From: Hujiaoplasma nucleasis
GTDB lineage: Bacteria > Bacillota_I > Bacilli_A > Izemoplasmatales > Hujiaoplasmataceae
Direction of reading: 5' to 3'
Length of the DNA stretch: 64,000 bases
Assembly: GCF_013745115.1 (NCBI RefSeq)
Contig: NZ_CP051151.1
Span: 248,001-312,000 of the forward strand
The notes below the pieces were generated by a model. It did no database searches and was not told the origin of the DNA. It saw only the letters and a list, made by a program, of their open reading frames with translations. Shown in pieces: positions 31,047-36,788 of this stretch. Made by a program: the position numbers and the translations under genes. Position 1 is the stretch's first letter. Each line of letters begins with the position of its first letter.

Positions 31047-31075
31047 TTTACAAATTAGTTAGGATATATTATACT
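31047..31075 (+). promoter_or_regulatory. Promoter of the padR-jetABC operon
   Basis: TTTACA (31047-31052) and TATACT (31070-31075) are spaced by 17 bp. The predicted start is near 31082, immediately before a dense set of repeats, so downstream operators can block initiation or elongation. Confidence 0.65.
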
Positions 31076-31090
31076 ATAAACAGATTAAGT

Positions 31091-31120
31091 ATAAACAAAT
31101 TATACATAAACAAATTATAC
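31091..31120 (+). repeat. Two tandem copies of a 15-bp operator-like repeat
   Basis: ATAAACAAATTATAC occurs twice without a gap (31091-31105 and 31106-31120). The first copy also forms an inverted repeat GTATAA/TTATAC (31089-31094 with 31100-31105). This is a likely PadR binding region. Confidence 0.75.
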
Positions 31121-31139
31121 TTAAATCATTTAAGTATAA
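31115..31139 (+). promoter_or_regulatory. Perfect 25-bp palindrome before padR, probable PadR operator
   Basis: The 12-bp arm TTATACTTAAAT (31115-31126) is mirrored exactly at 31128-31139 around a single C at 31127. It ends 1 bp before the GGAGG ribosome-binding site and overlaps the tandem repeats. Autoregulation by the PadR protein is the simplest reading. Confidence 0.75.
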
Positions 31140-31153
31140 AGGAGGTGATGATA

Positions 31154-31504
31154 ATGACCAAAAATAGCGATCATATTAGGGGTTTTACAGATTACTTTAT
31201 ATTGTCTATACTAGAAAAATATGATAGTTATGGATATGAAATAGCTAAAATAATTGAAACTGTTAGCAAAGAAAATATTAATTTAAATGAAGCAACTTTA
31301 TATATTGCTTTGAAACGTTTGTTAAATGAAGGAAAAATATCGACTTATAAACAAAAAAATAAAAAGGGTATCTCGCGTCGTTATTATCGTCTCAACGATG
31401 AAGGGAAGAAGCAATTAAAAACTTTTAGAAAAGAATGGATCAACTTAGAAAATACATTAACCACCTTAGTAAGTGGAAAATTTAAATATGAGCGTTATGA
31501 GTAA
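31154..31504 (+). CDS. PadR-family regulator of the jetABC-like operon
   Basis: A 116-residue PadR winged-helix protein. Family features are the N-terminal helix (HIRGFTDYFILSILEKYDSYG), the wing region (LNEATLYIALKRLLNEGKI) and RRYYRLNDEGKKQLKTFRKEW. It is short, with a brief C-terminal helix. ATG 31154 is chosen for its spacing from GGAGG at 31141-31145. It lies 12 bp before the JetA-like gene and heads that operon, an uncommon arrangement that suggests ligand- or stress-controlled expression. Confidence 0.88.
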   Translation: MTKNSDHIRGFTDYFILSILEKYDSYGYEIAKIIETVSKENINLNEATLYIALKRLLNEGKISTYKQKNKKGISRRYYRLNDEGKKQLKTFRKEWINLENTLTTLVSGKFKYERYE

Positions 31505-31516
31505 GGATGTGAGACA

Positions 31517-32920
31517 ATGGATGTATTTAATATTATACCTAATCAATTTTTTAATTTATTAACAGGCAAGAATAGAACGATTTATGTGAATTGTTTACTT
31601 GAACTTTTTAGAGTTTATGAACAGGGTTCAATTTTAGGAATGGATAAAGATATAGCTAGACAAGTTGTTACTGACTATCTTGACATTAATCCTCTTGAAG
31701 AAGAACTAGATGATATCGAGGATACTTCAGAGTTAACTAATAGAGATAGAGCTAACCAAATACTACGACGTCTTGAAAAAACTGAATGGATTGATATTGA
31801 CGTTAATAATAATTATGAAGAAATTTTAAATTTTAGAGATTATTCAATTACAATTATTGAGGCCTTAAAAGATATATCTTCTGATGGTTTTTATGAGGAT
31901 TTTGATGATGATGGCCATGAATTTAGAGGATATATATATACATCTTACTCTTTGCTAAATAGTGATTTTGGAGAGTATGCGATGGTTTTAGAACAAGTAT
32001 ATAAAAATACATTGGCTTTTGTTAGAGAGATTAGAAAACTTGATTCTAGGTTAAAATTTTATATTAAAACCATTGTAGATAACTCTGAAATTAAAGATTT
32101 AATTAACTTATTAGTCAATTACAAGACAGAGTTAATGGATAAAGCATATCGGAGATTAAAAACGAGTGATAATATCAATAAATATCGTAATGTTATTGTT
32201 CAAAAACTAGAACAAATGCAGGAAGATAAGTATATCATGGAAATTTTGGCAAAAGAACATTTGGTTAAATCACATAATAATTCTGATATTGCCATGATGA
32301 AAGTTAATAAAAAAATAGACGATATCATCGATATTTATAATTCAGTTTCTTACATAATTGATGAAATTGATAATAAAAACAAAGTTTATGTAAATACGAC
32401 GATTGCTAAAATTAAGTTCTTACTATCAGATGATGAAAATGTTATTTCTAAATTAAGTAAAATTCTTAGATATACATCTGAAACCATTAAGGATAATCAA
32501 ACTATAAAAGCATTAAATACAATCAGACCAATGTTTACCTTATCTTCTTACCAACAAATATCGAAAAACTCATTATATACTCCAAGAGGTATTTATAAAC
32601 GCATTGAAAATCAATTCTTAGAATCAACCAATCATGAGTTTGATCAAAGTCTTAAAGATGATTTTTATAAAGAATTTGAAGCTCATTACTCTGAAGAAGT
32701 TATCGATAGATACTTAAAAGAATATTTCAGCCGTAATTCTGTGATTAAGGCGAGTGAAATAATTAAAGATGATATGACAGATGAAGCCATATTAAGATTA
32801 CTTTATATCTTAGTCTATGCTGGAGATGAAATGAATTATTATATTCAACCATTAAATAGAAAAATTAATAATCCAAGATTTGTCATTGATGATTTTGAGA
32901 TTATAAAGGGGGAAAATTAA
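31517..32920 (+). CDS. jetA: JetA/MksF-like kleisin subunit (DUF5716-type Wadjet)
   Basis: A 467-residue protein resembling the JetA family of Wadjet systems with DUF5716-type JetA, equivalent to the MukF/MksF kleisin. The N-terminal opening FNIIPNQFFNLLTGKNRTIYVNCLLELF is characteristic. The middle is a long helical region, and the C-terminus resembles a winged-helix domain that would contact the SMC head. The order JetA-JetB-JetC and the 0-bp gap to the next gene support the call. It would bridge the JetC ATPase heads in a DNA-loop-extruding complex. Confidence 0.82.
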   Translation: MDVFNIIPNQFFNLLTGKNRTIYVNCLLELFRVYEQGSILGMDKDIARQVVTDYLDINPLEEELDDIEDTSELTNRDRANQILRRLEKTEWIDIDVNNNYEEILNFRDYSITIIEALKDISSDGFYEDFDDDGHEFRGYIYTSYSLLNSDFGEYAMVLEQVYKNTLAFVREIRKLDSRLKFYIKTIVDNSEIKDLINLLVNYKTELMDKAYRRLKTSDNINKYRNVIVQKLEQMQEDKYIMEILAKEHLVKSHNNSDIAMMKVNKKIDDIIDIYNSVSYIIDEIDNKNKVYVNTTIAKIKFLLSDDENVISKLSKILRYTSETIKDNQTIKALNTIRPMFTLSSYQQISKNSLYTPRGIYKRIENQFLESTNHEFDQSLKDDFYKEFEAHYSEEVIDRYLKEYFSRNSVIKASEIIKDDMTDEAILRLLYILVYAGDEMNYYIQPLNRKINNPRFVIDDFEIIKGEN

Positions 32921-33532
32921 ATGATTTTGGAAAATTTCGAAGAACTAAATGTAGGGCAACAAAAGCTATTTGCTAAAACATGTTTAAGATTATTACAAAA
33001 TAGCTTTTTAGCTAAGGACAAAGAAGATAATAAGGAGATGTATTATTTCATTATTTCTTTTAAACAATACTTTGATGAATATTTTGATGTGATGGAATTT
33101 GATTTAATTTTAGATAGGGAGATGGGTGCAGTACAATTAGTGCATCGTGAAAATAACAATTTATTAAGACTTAAAAAAGATGAATCTATAGTTTTGCTTA
33201 TCTTAAGAATTTTATTCCATGAACATTTAGTAAAGACTTCTATCAATGATAATGTTGTTATTAAAGTTGACGAGATACATGACTACTATGATTCTCTTGA
33301 GTTAAAGAAAAAAATTAATAAAACTGATTTGGTTAAAATTCTTAGATTATTTAAAAAATATAATTTGATAGAAACACTTGGAGATATTACTAAGTCATCT
33401 ACACCAATCATAATTTACCCAACTATTTTACTTGCAATTAATACGCAAACGATAAATGATGTCTATAATATAATCTCTCATATTGAAAATAAGAATGGAA
33501 GTGAAAAAAATGAAAAAACTTTCGAAAATTAG
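32921..33532 (+). CDS. jetB: JetB/MksE-like subunit (DUF6063-like)
   Basis: A 203-residue protein with an alpha-helical, two-winged-helix character typical of MukE/MksE/JetB subunits (DUF6063-like in this Wadjet type). It starts immediately after the JetA stop, with AAAGGGGGA upstream, and overlaps the JetC start by 23 bp. The call rests mainly on size, operon position and helical pattern, because these subunits diverge strongly. It would bind the kleisin and DNA. Confidence 0.75.
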   Translation: MILENFEELNVGQQKLFAKTCLRLLQNSFLAKDKEDNKEMYYFIISFKQYFDEYFDVMEFDLILDREMGAVQLVHRENNNLLRLKKDESIVLLILRILFHEHLVKTSINDNVVIKVDEIHDYYDSLELKKKINKTDLVKILRLFKKYNLIETLGDITKSSTPIIIYPTILLAINTQTINDVYNIISHIENKNGSEKNEKTFEN

Positions 33533-36500
33533 ACTTATCAATTGGCATTATTTTTCTAATGAAACAATAAATATAAAAAATAATACCCTGATTACAGGTC
33601 AAAACGCCACTGGTAAATCAACCATTGTTGATGCAATAGCTTTTGTATTAACTGCAGGAGATCAAATATTCAACTTAGCTGCTAATGATAAAAGTAAACG
33701 TGATTTAAGAGGCTATGTTAAATGTAAGTTAGGAATTGATAATCAAGAGTATTTAAGAGCAGGAGATACGACAGGTCATGTGGCTCTTGAATTTTATGAC
33801 GAAGTCAAAGACGAATATTTTACTGTAGGGACTGTTATTGATATTGTTGGAGAAATCATTCCTCCAAAAGTAATCTTCTATGAATATCATGATAAGATTA
33901 ATGAAGAGTTGTTTGTTGATGATGAAGGCATTATTCTTACAACACTTAATTTCAAAAAAATTAAGTTAAGCAAAAAAATATACTTAACTAGAAGAGAAGC
34001 AAAAGCTGCTTTTAGGAAAAAATTCGGTTCTATCAATGAAAATTATTTTAGCTTATTGCCAAAAGCTTTGGCATTTAAACCTATTTCAGATGTAAAGGAA
34101 TTTATCTATAAGTATTTACTTGAAGAAAGAGTATTAGATGTTGAATCAATTAAAGAATCTATTAGGGCATATAAAGATTTAGAAGCGACACTAAAGATTA
34201 TTAAGGAAAAAGTAAAAGATTTAGATGATATAGCTCAAACATATGAAGAGATTAAAGACAATATTTCTCAAAAAGAGTTTTATGAATATTTCTTAAAACT
34301 GCTTGAAGTAGAATCTATTAAAGATAATATCGATAAAGAGAATAAAAAATTAGATAAAGTTATACTTGATAAAGAACAAAACAATAAGTTGATTCAAGAA
34401 CTATCTGATCAGCTAGAAATACTTGATGAAAGATCTAAAGAAGTCTATTCAATGTTGTCAAACAATGATACTTTTAAAGCTGCTGAGATATATGATAAAG
34501 AAATGAATGACTTAACTAAAAAGATTAATGAACAATCAGAAATGCGTCAGTATGCTGCTACTAAAGCTAAATCAATAAAAGAAATTATAGAAGACTTAAA
34601 TAGCGAGTATGATCAAAAAACTTATAAACAATTAGGTAAAATTGATTTAACAAATATTGATGATGAAAACTATGAATCAACAAAGTTAAAACTGATTCAA
34701 ATAGAAAAAGATTTAGATGAAGTCTTAGATCAAAACCGTTCAGAATTCGGAAAACTTAATCATGTAAAACAAGAAATTGTTGAAGAAATTAATGATGTAT
34801 ACCAAACCTTAAAAGGTTTAGAAAACAATAAGCTTAAGTATGATCCTATGATTGTTCGGTTGCAATCAAGTATAATTGATGGGGTTAAACAACAATATAA
34901 TGTAGATATCAATGTTCATGTTCTATGTGAACTTTTAGAAGTGACTGACCCTAAGTGGCAAGATACTATTGAAGATTATTTAGGAAGACAGAGATTCAAC
35001 TTGATTGTTGAACCAAGGTATTTTGATTTAGCATTATCAGTATATAATCAAATTAAAGATTCAATGCAAATATATGGTGTTGGTCTAGTAAATACAAAGA
35101 AAATTCAACAATTTGATCAATTTAGGCCAAATTCTTTAGCCTCAATAATTGACTCAGATAATAAAGATGCCAAAAATTTCATAAACATGATTTGTGGTAA
35201 TTTAATCATGGTTGATTCAGTCAATGAACTAGAAAACTATTCACAAGCAATCACTTTAAATGGTATGGTATATAGATCGTTTACAGTAAGGTCATTATTT
35301 AAACTAAAAGATAAACCATTTATAGGTAAAAATGCTAAAGCTTCACAATTAGAAACTTGGAGAAAAAAAGCAAAAGAATTATCACTAGATCATCAAAGAA
35401 TCAATAAGAAAATGAATGATATTACTGAAGAAAACTCTTTAATAAAAAGGTTAAATTTAAGTAACTTTATATCTATGCTCAAAAATTACTATTCACTAGA
35501 TACATTAAAAGAAAAACGTAAAGCTTTGGCTGAAAAGAAAAGAAACTTGCCTCAAGAAAGTTTAAAAGATTTAAGGGTAGAATATGAGCATATTAGAGAA
35601 GAAATTTCATCTTATAATATCAGTCGACAAAAAGCTTATGAGAAAAATGGGTCATTAAATAATAAAGAATCTAATTGTCATGAAAATCTACTAATGTTTG
35701 AAGAAAGTTTAAATACATTAAATAGAACAATTTCTAAGCAAGTAGAAGAAAATCCAGTCTTAAAGGATAAAGCTCAAACTTTATTTAATGAAGAAATTCA
35801 AAGTCAAGGTATTCAAAATATATTAGAGGCATATAAAGAAAAAATTACTAAGGAACTTAACAATATTGATAATTTAGAAGATGCTTTAAGAAGCAAACAA
35901 ATTCAATACACTCAAAAATATAATTTAAGCTATCAATTTGGTCTACAATATATTGATGAATATCTAGACGAAAGAAACAAGTTAGTTAAATCAGAACTTG
36001 TTAAGTATGAATCTAAAGTTAGAGAAGCTAGAGAAGTGGCAGAAAAATTATTTAAAGAAGATTTTATGTCAAAATTAAGACATTATATCATTTCAGCACA
36101 AGATGAGATCAAGAAAATCAATGAGACTTTAAAAAATATACGTTTTGGTGAAGATTCTTATGAATTTATTTTCCCTAAGAGTAAAGAATATGGGGACTAT
36201 TACGACATGGTATTATCAGAAGAAGCAATTAAATCAGGTGAAGAAATTTTTAATTATGATTTTGAAATGAAATACCAACGTCAATTGGAAGAGTTGTTTA
36301 TTAATTTAGCTTCAGAAGATTTAAATTCAAAAGGCAGTGTTAATAAATTTACGGATTACAGGACCTATATGGATTATGATATATTGATTACTAATACTTC
36401 GGGAGATAGAATTAATTACTCTAAAGTATTTAAAGAAAAATCTGGTGGAGAAACTCAAGTACCTTTCTATGTTGCAACACTAGCATCTTTTGTAAGAGTA

Positions 36501-36752
36501 TTCGATCAAGCTTCTAGAAAAGTCAATCAAGAGTCTATAGGACTAATCTTGTTTGATGAAGTGTTTGATAAAATGGACTCATCAAGAATCAAAGCAATGA
36601 TGAAGTTTATCCAACAGTTACCGGTTCAAATTATGCTTTCAACGCCACCACAAAAAATGGAAATATTACAAAAGTATACCGATACTACAGTAATAACTTT
36701 GAGAGATGGAAAAAAAGCAAGAACTCTACAGATGAACAAACAAGTCGCATAA
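33510..36752 (+). CDS. jetC: JetC/MksB-like SMC ATPase
   Basis: A 1080-residue SMC-type ATPase. Walker A GQNATGKST (30-38) is near the N-terminus; the ABC signature SGGE (978-981) and Walker B LILFDE (1012-1017) are near the C-terminus, separated by long coiled-coil arms around a putative hinge (about 470-560). All ATP-binding motifs are intact. ATG 33510 is chosen for GGAAGTG 6 bp upstream. It is the motor of a Wadjet/MukBEF-like complex. A JetD nuclease gene would normally follow, but the next gene is rsmE. Confidence 0.88.
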   Translation: MKKLSKIRLINWHYFSNETINIKNNTLITGQNATGKSTIVDAIAFVLTAGDQIFNLAANDKSKRDLRGYVKCKLGIDNQEYLRAGDTTGHVALEFYDEVKDEYFTVGTVIDIVGEIIPPKVIFYEYHDKINEELFVDDEGIILTTLNFKKIKLSKKIYLTRREAKAAFRKKFGSINENYFSLLPKALAFKPISDVKEFIYKYLLEERVLDVESIKESIRAYKDLEATLKIIKEKVKDLDDIAQTYEEIKDNISQKEFYEYFLKLLEVESIKDNIDKENKKLDKVILDKEQNNKLIQELSDQLEILDERSKEVYSMLSNNDTFKAAEIYDKEMNDLTKKINEQSEMRQYAATKAKSIKEIIEDLNSEYDQKTYKQLGKIDLTNIDDENYESTKLKLIQIEKDLDEVLDQNRSEFGKLNHVKQEIVEEINDVYQTLKGLENNKLKYDPMIVRLQSSIIDGVKQQYNVDINVHVLCELLEVTDPKWQDTIEDYLGRQRFNLIVEPRYFDLALSVYNQIKDSMQIYGVGLVNTKKIQQFDQFRPNSLASIIDSDNKDAKNFINMICGNLIMVDSVNELENYSQAITLNGMVYRSFTVRSLFKLKDKPFIGKNAKASQLETWRKKAKELSLDHQRINKKMNDITEENSLIKRLNLSNFISMLKNYYSLDTLKEKRKALAEKKRNLPQESLKDLRVEYEHIREEISSYNISRQKAYEKNGSLNNKESNCHENLLMFEESLNTLNRTISKQVEENPVLKDKAQTLFNEEIQSQGIQNILEAYKEKITKELNNIDNLEDALRSKQIQYTQKYNLSYQFGLQYIDEYLDERNKLVKSELVKYESKVREAREVAEKLFKEDFMSKLRHYIISAQDEIKKINETLKNIRFGEDSYEFIFPKSKEYGDYYDMVLSEEAIKSGEEIFNYDFEMKYQRQLEELFINLASEDLNSKGSVNKFTDYRTYMDYDILITNTSGDRINYSKVFKEKSGGETQVPFYVATLASFVRVFDQASRKVNQESIGLILFDEVFDKMDSSRIKAMMKFIQQLPVQIMLSTPPQKMEILQKYTDTTVITLRDGKKARTLQMNKQVA

Positions 36753-36757
36753 GATAA

Positions 36758-36788
36758 TAGGCCATAATTTTTATGGCCTAATATTTTT
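36758..36788 (+). terminator. Intrinsic terminator after jetC
   Basis: A 10-bp stem TAGGCCATAA/TTATGGCCTA (36758-36767 with 36771-36780) has a TTT loop and is followed by an AT-rich tail with TTTTT. It closes the padR-jetABC operon, confirming that no further jet gene is co-transcribed. Confidence 0.8.

Follow-up and report, generated by a model that had tools for sequence, protein, structure and literature searches.

A type I Wadjet operon without JetD as a likely chromosomal SMC complex in Hujiaoplasma nucleasis and related Bacilli

The padR-jetABC operon of Hujiaoplasma nucleasis encodes a type I Wadjet motor without the JetD nuclease, and we consider it likely, though well short of settled, that this motor has been turned into the main chromosomal SMC complex (condensin) of its host; the function is inferred and no experiment supports it. 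The cutting subunit is gone, no other SMC complex was found and inheritance resembles that of a housekeeping gene; taken together, this suggests that JetABC probably organizes the host's own chromosome. In the proposed mechanism, JetD would have been shed from a type I Wadjet whose motor consists of the kleisin JetA, the kite JetB and the SMC ATPase JetC. The three remaining proteins, whose assembly into a complex is inferred, would load onto the chromosome, extrude loops with ATP hydrolysis (likewise inferred), and compact and separate sister chromosomes, Smc-ScpAB having been lost from the clade. With JetD absent, a stalled motor would yield no cleavage, leaving a harmless loop extruder and the only one remaining.

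The padR-jetABC operon and its products

The window analysed is the whole stretch of 64,000 nucleotides from contig NZ_CP051151.1, to which all coordinates refer. The operon comprises the following features:

31047..31075, + strand: promoter of padR-jetABC, TTTACA-17-TATACT (consensus in the source family, f1: TTTACA-17-TATAAT)
31075..31139, + strand: tandem repeats of ~15 bp (ATAAACAGATTAAGT ...) with an inverted repeat of 12-bp arms at the end; probable PadR operator, binding inferred
31154..31504, + strand: padR, PadR-family regulator, 116 aa (Pfam PadR, E 2e-18)
31517..32920, + strand: jetA, kleisin, 467 aa (Pfam JetA, E 1e-71; PADLOC JetA1, 349 bits)
32921..33532, + strand: jetB, kite subunit, 203 aa (DUF4194, E 1e-28; PADLOC JetB1, 192 bits)
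33510..36752, + strand: jetC, SMC ATPase, 1080 aa from ATG (PADLOC JetC1, 989 bits)
36758..36780, + strand: terminator-like hairpin with a 10-pair stem; operon end, upstream of rsmE (start 36832)

The original prediction, made without database searches, described a padR-jetA-jetB-jetC operon lacking JetD, tightly packed and closed by a terminator before rsmE. Its composition was confirmed by Pfam and PADLOC matches and by the lack of JetD nearby or genome-wide, and the near-gapless layout was seen as described (a 12-nt gap between padR and jetA, jetA and jetB abutting, jetB and jetC overlapping by 23 nt, and the stem at 36758-36780). An in-frame TTG at 33483 offers an alternative jetC start (1089 aa). 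The naming of the three proteins also stood, with JetA1, JetB1 and JetC1 the best-scoring profiles, and they are confirmed as genuine type I Wadjet proteins, encoded in Wadjet gene order. Membership of the MukB/E/F or MksB/E/F families was not met, JetB being weak as MksE (24 bits; cut-off 27), nor was membership of Smc-ScpAB (JetC against TIGR02168, SMC_prok_B: 41 bits; cut-off 567). The ATPase motifs of JetC, which had been called intact, are so throughout (Walker A, GQNATGKS; signature, SGGETQ; Walker B with catalytic glutamate, LILFDEVFDKMD) and are invariant or almost so in 30 diverse JetC; the JetC sequence also matches JetC chains of solved structures. The predicted JetA model had a mean pLDDT of 68, its top fold-search matches being JetA and MukF chains (E ~1e-3, low TM-scores), and a JetA profile returned no matches among PDB sequences.

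The repeats start immediately after the promoter, promoter and repeats are common to f1 loci, and the source repeat unit has a single occurrence in the 64 kb, where 0.01 would be expected. PadR would probably repress its own operon via these repeats, which lie across the transcription start. No padR heads the homologous operons in f3 or in f22 (Anaeroplasmataceae), which marks it as an added layer of control, outside the core machine. The remark that a regulator at the head of such an operon is unusual was right for this locus, but the arrangement is limited to f1; our reading is that PadR, its binding being inferred, is an autorepressor added in that family.

JetD, Smc and ScpB in the genome and across the class

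The source genome is a single contig of 1,808,583 bases (96 percent completeness). A profile search for JetD (JetD_C, PF09983) found none in that whole genome and none in any f1 genome of the class sample, while the same search did recover it from a control genome and from other class families. A JetD gene just outside the operon, which would have overturned the prediction, was ruled out: the next gene downstream is rsmE, and there is no JetD genome-wide. Canonical Smc was absent from the genome, where SMC_N matches other than this JetC had the size of RecF, RecN or ABC ATPases, and Smc (TIGR02168) rose above cut-off in 0/34 f1 genomes. ScpB was not found in the source genome with the ScpB profile (ScpA lay outside the search). 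JetABC is the sole SMC-kleisin-kite complex found there; it meets the criterion of a kite-type SMC complex without JetD that marks the MukBEF/MksBEF type, and does not meet that of a type I Wadjet, in which JetD is encoded with the operon. The source genome still has ParB, in one copy, though Smc and ScpB are missing. It is present in most f1 genomes and also in f2, which has neither complex, and was not found in f3; as a candidate partner of JetABC it was rejected, because its distribution does not track that of the complex, a mismatch that also speaks against the condensin reading.

It is highly improbable that the absence of Smc, ScpB and JetD is an artefact of assembly or searching. Many relatives are indeed fragmented MAGs, but the source genome is one contig, the f1 genome G007 is a complete chromosome, and the same searches found Smc in 134 and JetD in 18-21 genomes of the class, as well as in controls, with Smc and ScpB calls concordant per genome except for 3 each way.

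The class sample comprised 296 genomes, with Smc called at the TIGR02168 cut-off and Jet as type I JetA or JetC. Smc was above cut-off in 134, Smc or strong ScpB was present in 137, and type I JetA or JetC in 82; 11 genomes had both Smc/ScpB and JetABC, 71 JetABC only, 126 Smc/ScpB only and 88 neither. JetA or JetC thus occurred in 11/137 Smc/ScpB genomes versus 71/159 others (Fisher P = 4e-13), and the two complexes are largely mutually exclusive in the class. JetABC without Smc or ScpB was found in families f1, f3, f5, f9, f12, f20 and f22. A JetD match was obtained in 4/71 Smc-less Jet genomes versus up to 9/11 Smc-bearing ones (P = 1e-7, or 2e-5 without the two weakest matches, in G040 and G104, which are weak or partial). 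Both the exclusion and the JetD contrast follow families, so genomes are not independent and these genome-level P values are inflated.

In the loci read of Smc-less families, no JetD stood beside the operon except in G166 (f16), which carries a full JetABCD without Smc. This genome counts against a condensin role for JetABC, as do the f10 genomes in which JetD-less jetABC occurs although Smc is retained (loci L081, L084, L085, L089 and L090). In f10 genomes G040, G076 and G086, JetD-less jetABC shares a contig with smc, at a distance of ~16-25 kb. A second, JetD-bearing locus was found in addition to the JetD-less operon in f22 genomes G185 and G289, where it is separate, and in f9 genome G103, where it looks broken. 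That G185 and G289 retain the JetD-less operon alongside a JetD locus suggests distinct jobs for the two.

The 88 genomes without Smc/ScpB and type I JetA/JetC belong to f2, f7, f18 and parts of f9 and f16 (ScpA, MukB and type II/III JetC were outside the search). Several of them reach 99 percent completeness, and a Walker B search in 40 gave mostly SbcC- or RecF-sized proteins; these are possibly lineages without any SMC complex. Because these genomes include f2, a sister family within the same order, an SMC complex may be dispensable in the clade, which weakens the condensin reading. JetABC could then be a conditional, PadR-controlled accessory chromosome factor in cells for which no SMC is essential, as seems to be the case in f2. 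PadR and the operator repeats, which suggest conditional expression, are compatible with this explanation. It is nonetheless rather doubtful in view of the strong conservation of the operon across f1 and of the homologous operons without padR in f3 and f22.

Inheritance, gene neighbourhood and JetC phylogeny

A main role in the chromosome, as we propose for JetABC, is in keeping with how the operon is inherited. JetA and JetC were each present in 30/34 f1 genomes, and one or both in 32/34; the two genomes without either (G013 and G020) are fragmented MAGs. Most of the 20 f1 loci read have the order dnaK-dnaJ-(padR)-jetA-jetB-jetC-rsmE-mtaB, the variants having insertions after dnaJ or a thioredoxin-like lipoprotein gene ahead of rsmE, and dnaJ-jetA adjacency recurs in f3, which belongs to the same taxonomic order. 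At L059, L060, L063, L070, L073 and L075 the lipoprotein gene separates jetC from rsmE; the source locus does not have it. In G006, a genome of the source genus (L037, L076 and L099), jetA is split into two frames, either a MAG assembly error or a real lesion. JetC distances correlate with those of DnaK, DnaJ, MtaB and RsmE (r 0.77-0.85), and its evolutionary rate falls between DnaJ and MtaB. By these comparisons of sequences, JetC behaves as a vertically inherited housekeeping gene; the genes compared are neighbours of jetC, and the distance correlation alone would also allow for the block having been transferred as a whole. Synteny within f1, with a conserved locus position and a vertical pattern, joins the JetD and Smc/ScpB results in supporting the original suggestion of a chromosomal loop extruder, a function that remains inferred.

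In Anaeroplasmataceae, sepF follows directly 3' of jetC in 44/44 loci with the JetD-less operon, mostly with a 1-bp overlap. The coupling was noted among L054-L056, L058, L092 and L121-L176, and L129 of Anaeroplasma bactoclasticum ATCC 27112 is one of the loci. SepF anchors and bundles FtsZ, and a jetABC motor that shares an operon with a division gene fits chromosome segregation better than plasmid defence. No substitute nuclease was identified downstream, the next gene being rsmE or the lipoprotein gene in f1, a PEP-utilising (PtsI-like) enzyme in f12 and SepF in f22. Placement of JetABC at a former scpAB-rluB locus was also considered and rejected, since an upstream pseudouridine synthase is not conserved, occurring at one f5 locus and at fewer than half of the f22 loci.

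These neighbourhoods bear on whether JetABC might still serve in defence, sensing and trapping plasmids or other circular DNA uncut, or delivering such DNA to some unrelated nuclease that acts in trans. JetA, JetB and JetC are, after all, type I Wadjet proteins, with intact motor residues and a regulator at the operon head. Fixed synteny and near-universal presence in f1 are not the patchy islands of a defence system, however, and with the sepF operon in a related family, no adjoining nuclease gene in the loci read and full Wadjets separately present in some relatives, we judge continued defence unlikely. Recruitment of a nuclease in trans, which the original prediction had left as its second option, has in particular become less likely because f1 has no JetD and the JetD of relatives sits within its own separate JetABCD locus.

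In a tree of 60 JetC, f1, f3 and f22 fell into one clade (support 100), all JetD-less; the tree is unrooted. JetD-bearing Wadjets (Clostridia, f10, f15, f16 and f22) fall in other parts of the tree, where further JetD-less groups are interspersed among them, and monophyly of the JetD-bearing sequences was rejected (AU P = 7e-41; log-likelihood lower by 189; three long branches excluded). As they do not form one clade, JetD has undergone repeated loss or gain, the direction of change being an inference in an unrooted tree. On balance we lean, with only modest conviction, towards repeated disarming and domestication of Wadjet (in Izemoplasmatales-like lineages, Anaeroplasmataceae and other families), with the motor serving as sole condensin after loss of Smc-ScpAB. 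JetA residue K298 (window 32408-32410) is Lys in most JetD-less proteins and Arg in 13/14 JetD-bearing JetA of the tree set and in 3/3 further Bacillota plasmid Wadjets. As a marker of JetD status it was not accepted and is a lead only, being post hoc, lacking enough independent changes to reach significance and failing in Pseudomonadota.

Significance and relation to known SMC systems

Smc-ScpAB is widespread among bacteria, and the origin of MukBEF and MksBEF is unresolved. No description of a JetD-less JetABC as sole SMC complex was found in the open-access literature. The JetABC of known Wadjets is believed to reel in DNA until nothing is left of a small circle, whereupon JetD cuts (PMC10586767), and a review has speculated that MukBEF and MksBEF descended from a Wadjet-like defence that lost JetD (PMC10586767). 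The present clade apparently took this step to a JetD-less state with a type I Wadjet, and JetABC is the only SMC complex found; if true, it offers an observable case of a Wadjet-to-MukBEF route until now proposed only as speculation. Cultured hosts, among them strain zrk2 and Anaeroplasma bactoclasticum, would allow the same motor to be examined both with JetD and in its absence. JetA, JetB and JetC models alone may also mislabel a chromosome-maintenance complex as plasmid defence.

The source complex shares with type I Wadjet (JetABCD/EptABCD/MksBEFG) its JetA, JetB and JetC families, gene order and ATPase motifs, and differs in lacking JetD, in belonging to a clade without Smc and ScpB, in its core synteny, and in the PadR head (f1) or sepF (Anaeroplasmataceae). 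Smc-ScpAB has the role proposed here and the same kleisin, kite and SMC architecture, whereas JetC is of a different family (TIGR02168, 41 versus 567 bits) and ScpB is absent from the genome. Like MksBEF of Pseudomonas and MukBEF of enterobacteria, which act on the chromosome, JetABC is a kite-type SMC complex with no JetD nuclease; unlike them, its proteins are type I Jet (DUF5716/DUF4194), its hosts are Bacilli and the JetD-less members form several separate groups in the JetC tree. MukBEF replaces Smc-ScpAB in enterobacteria.
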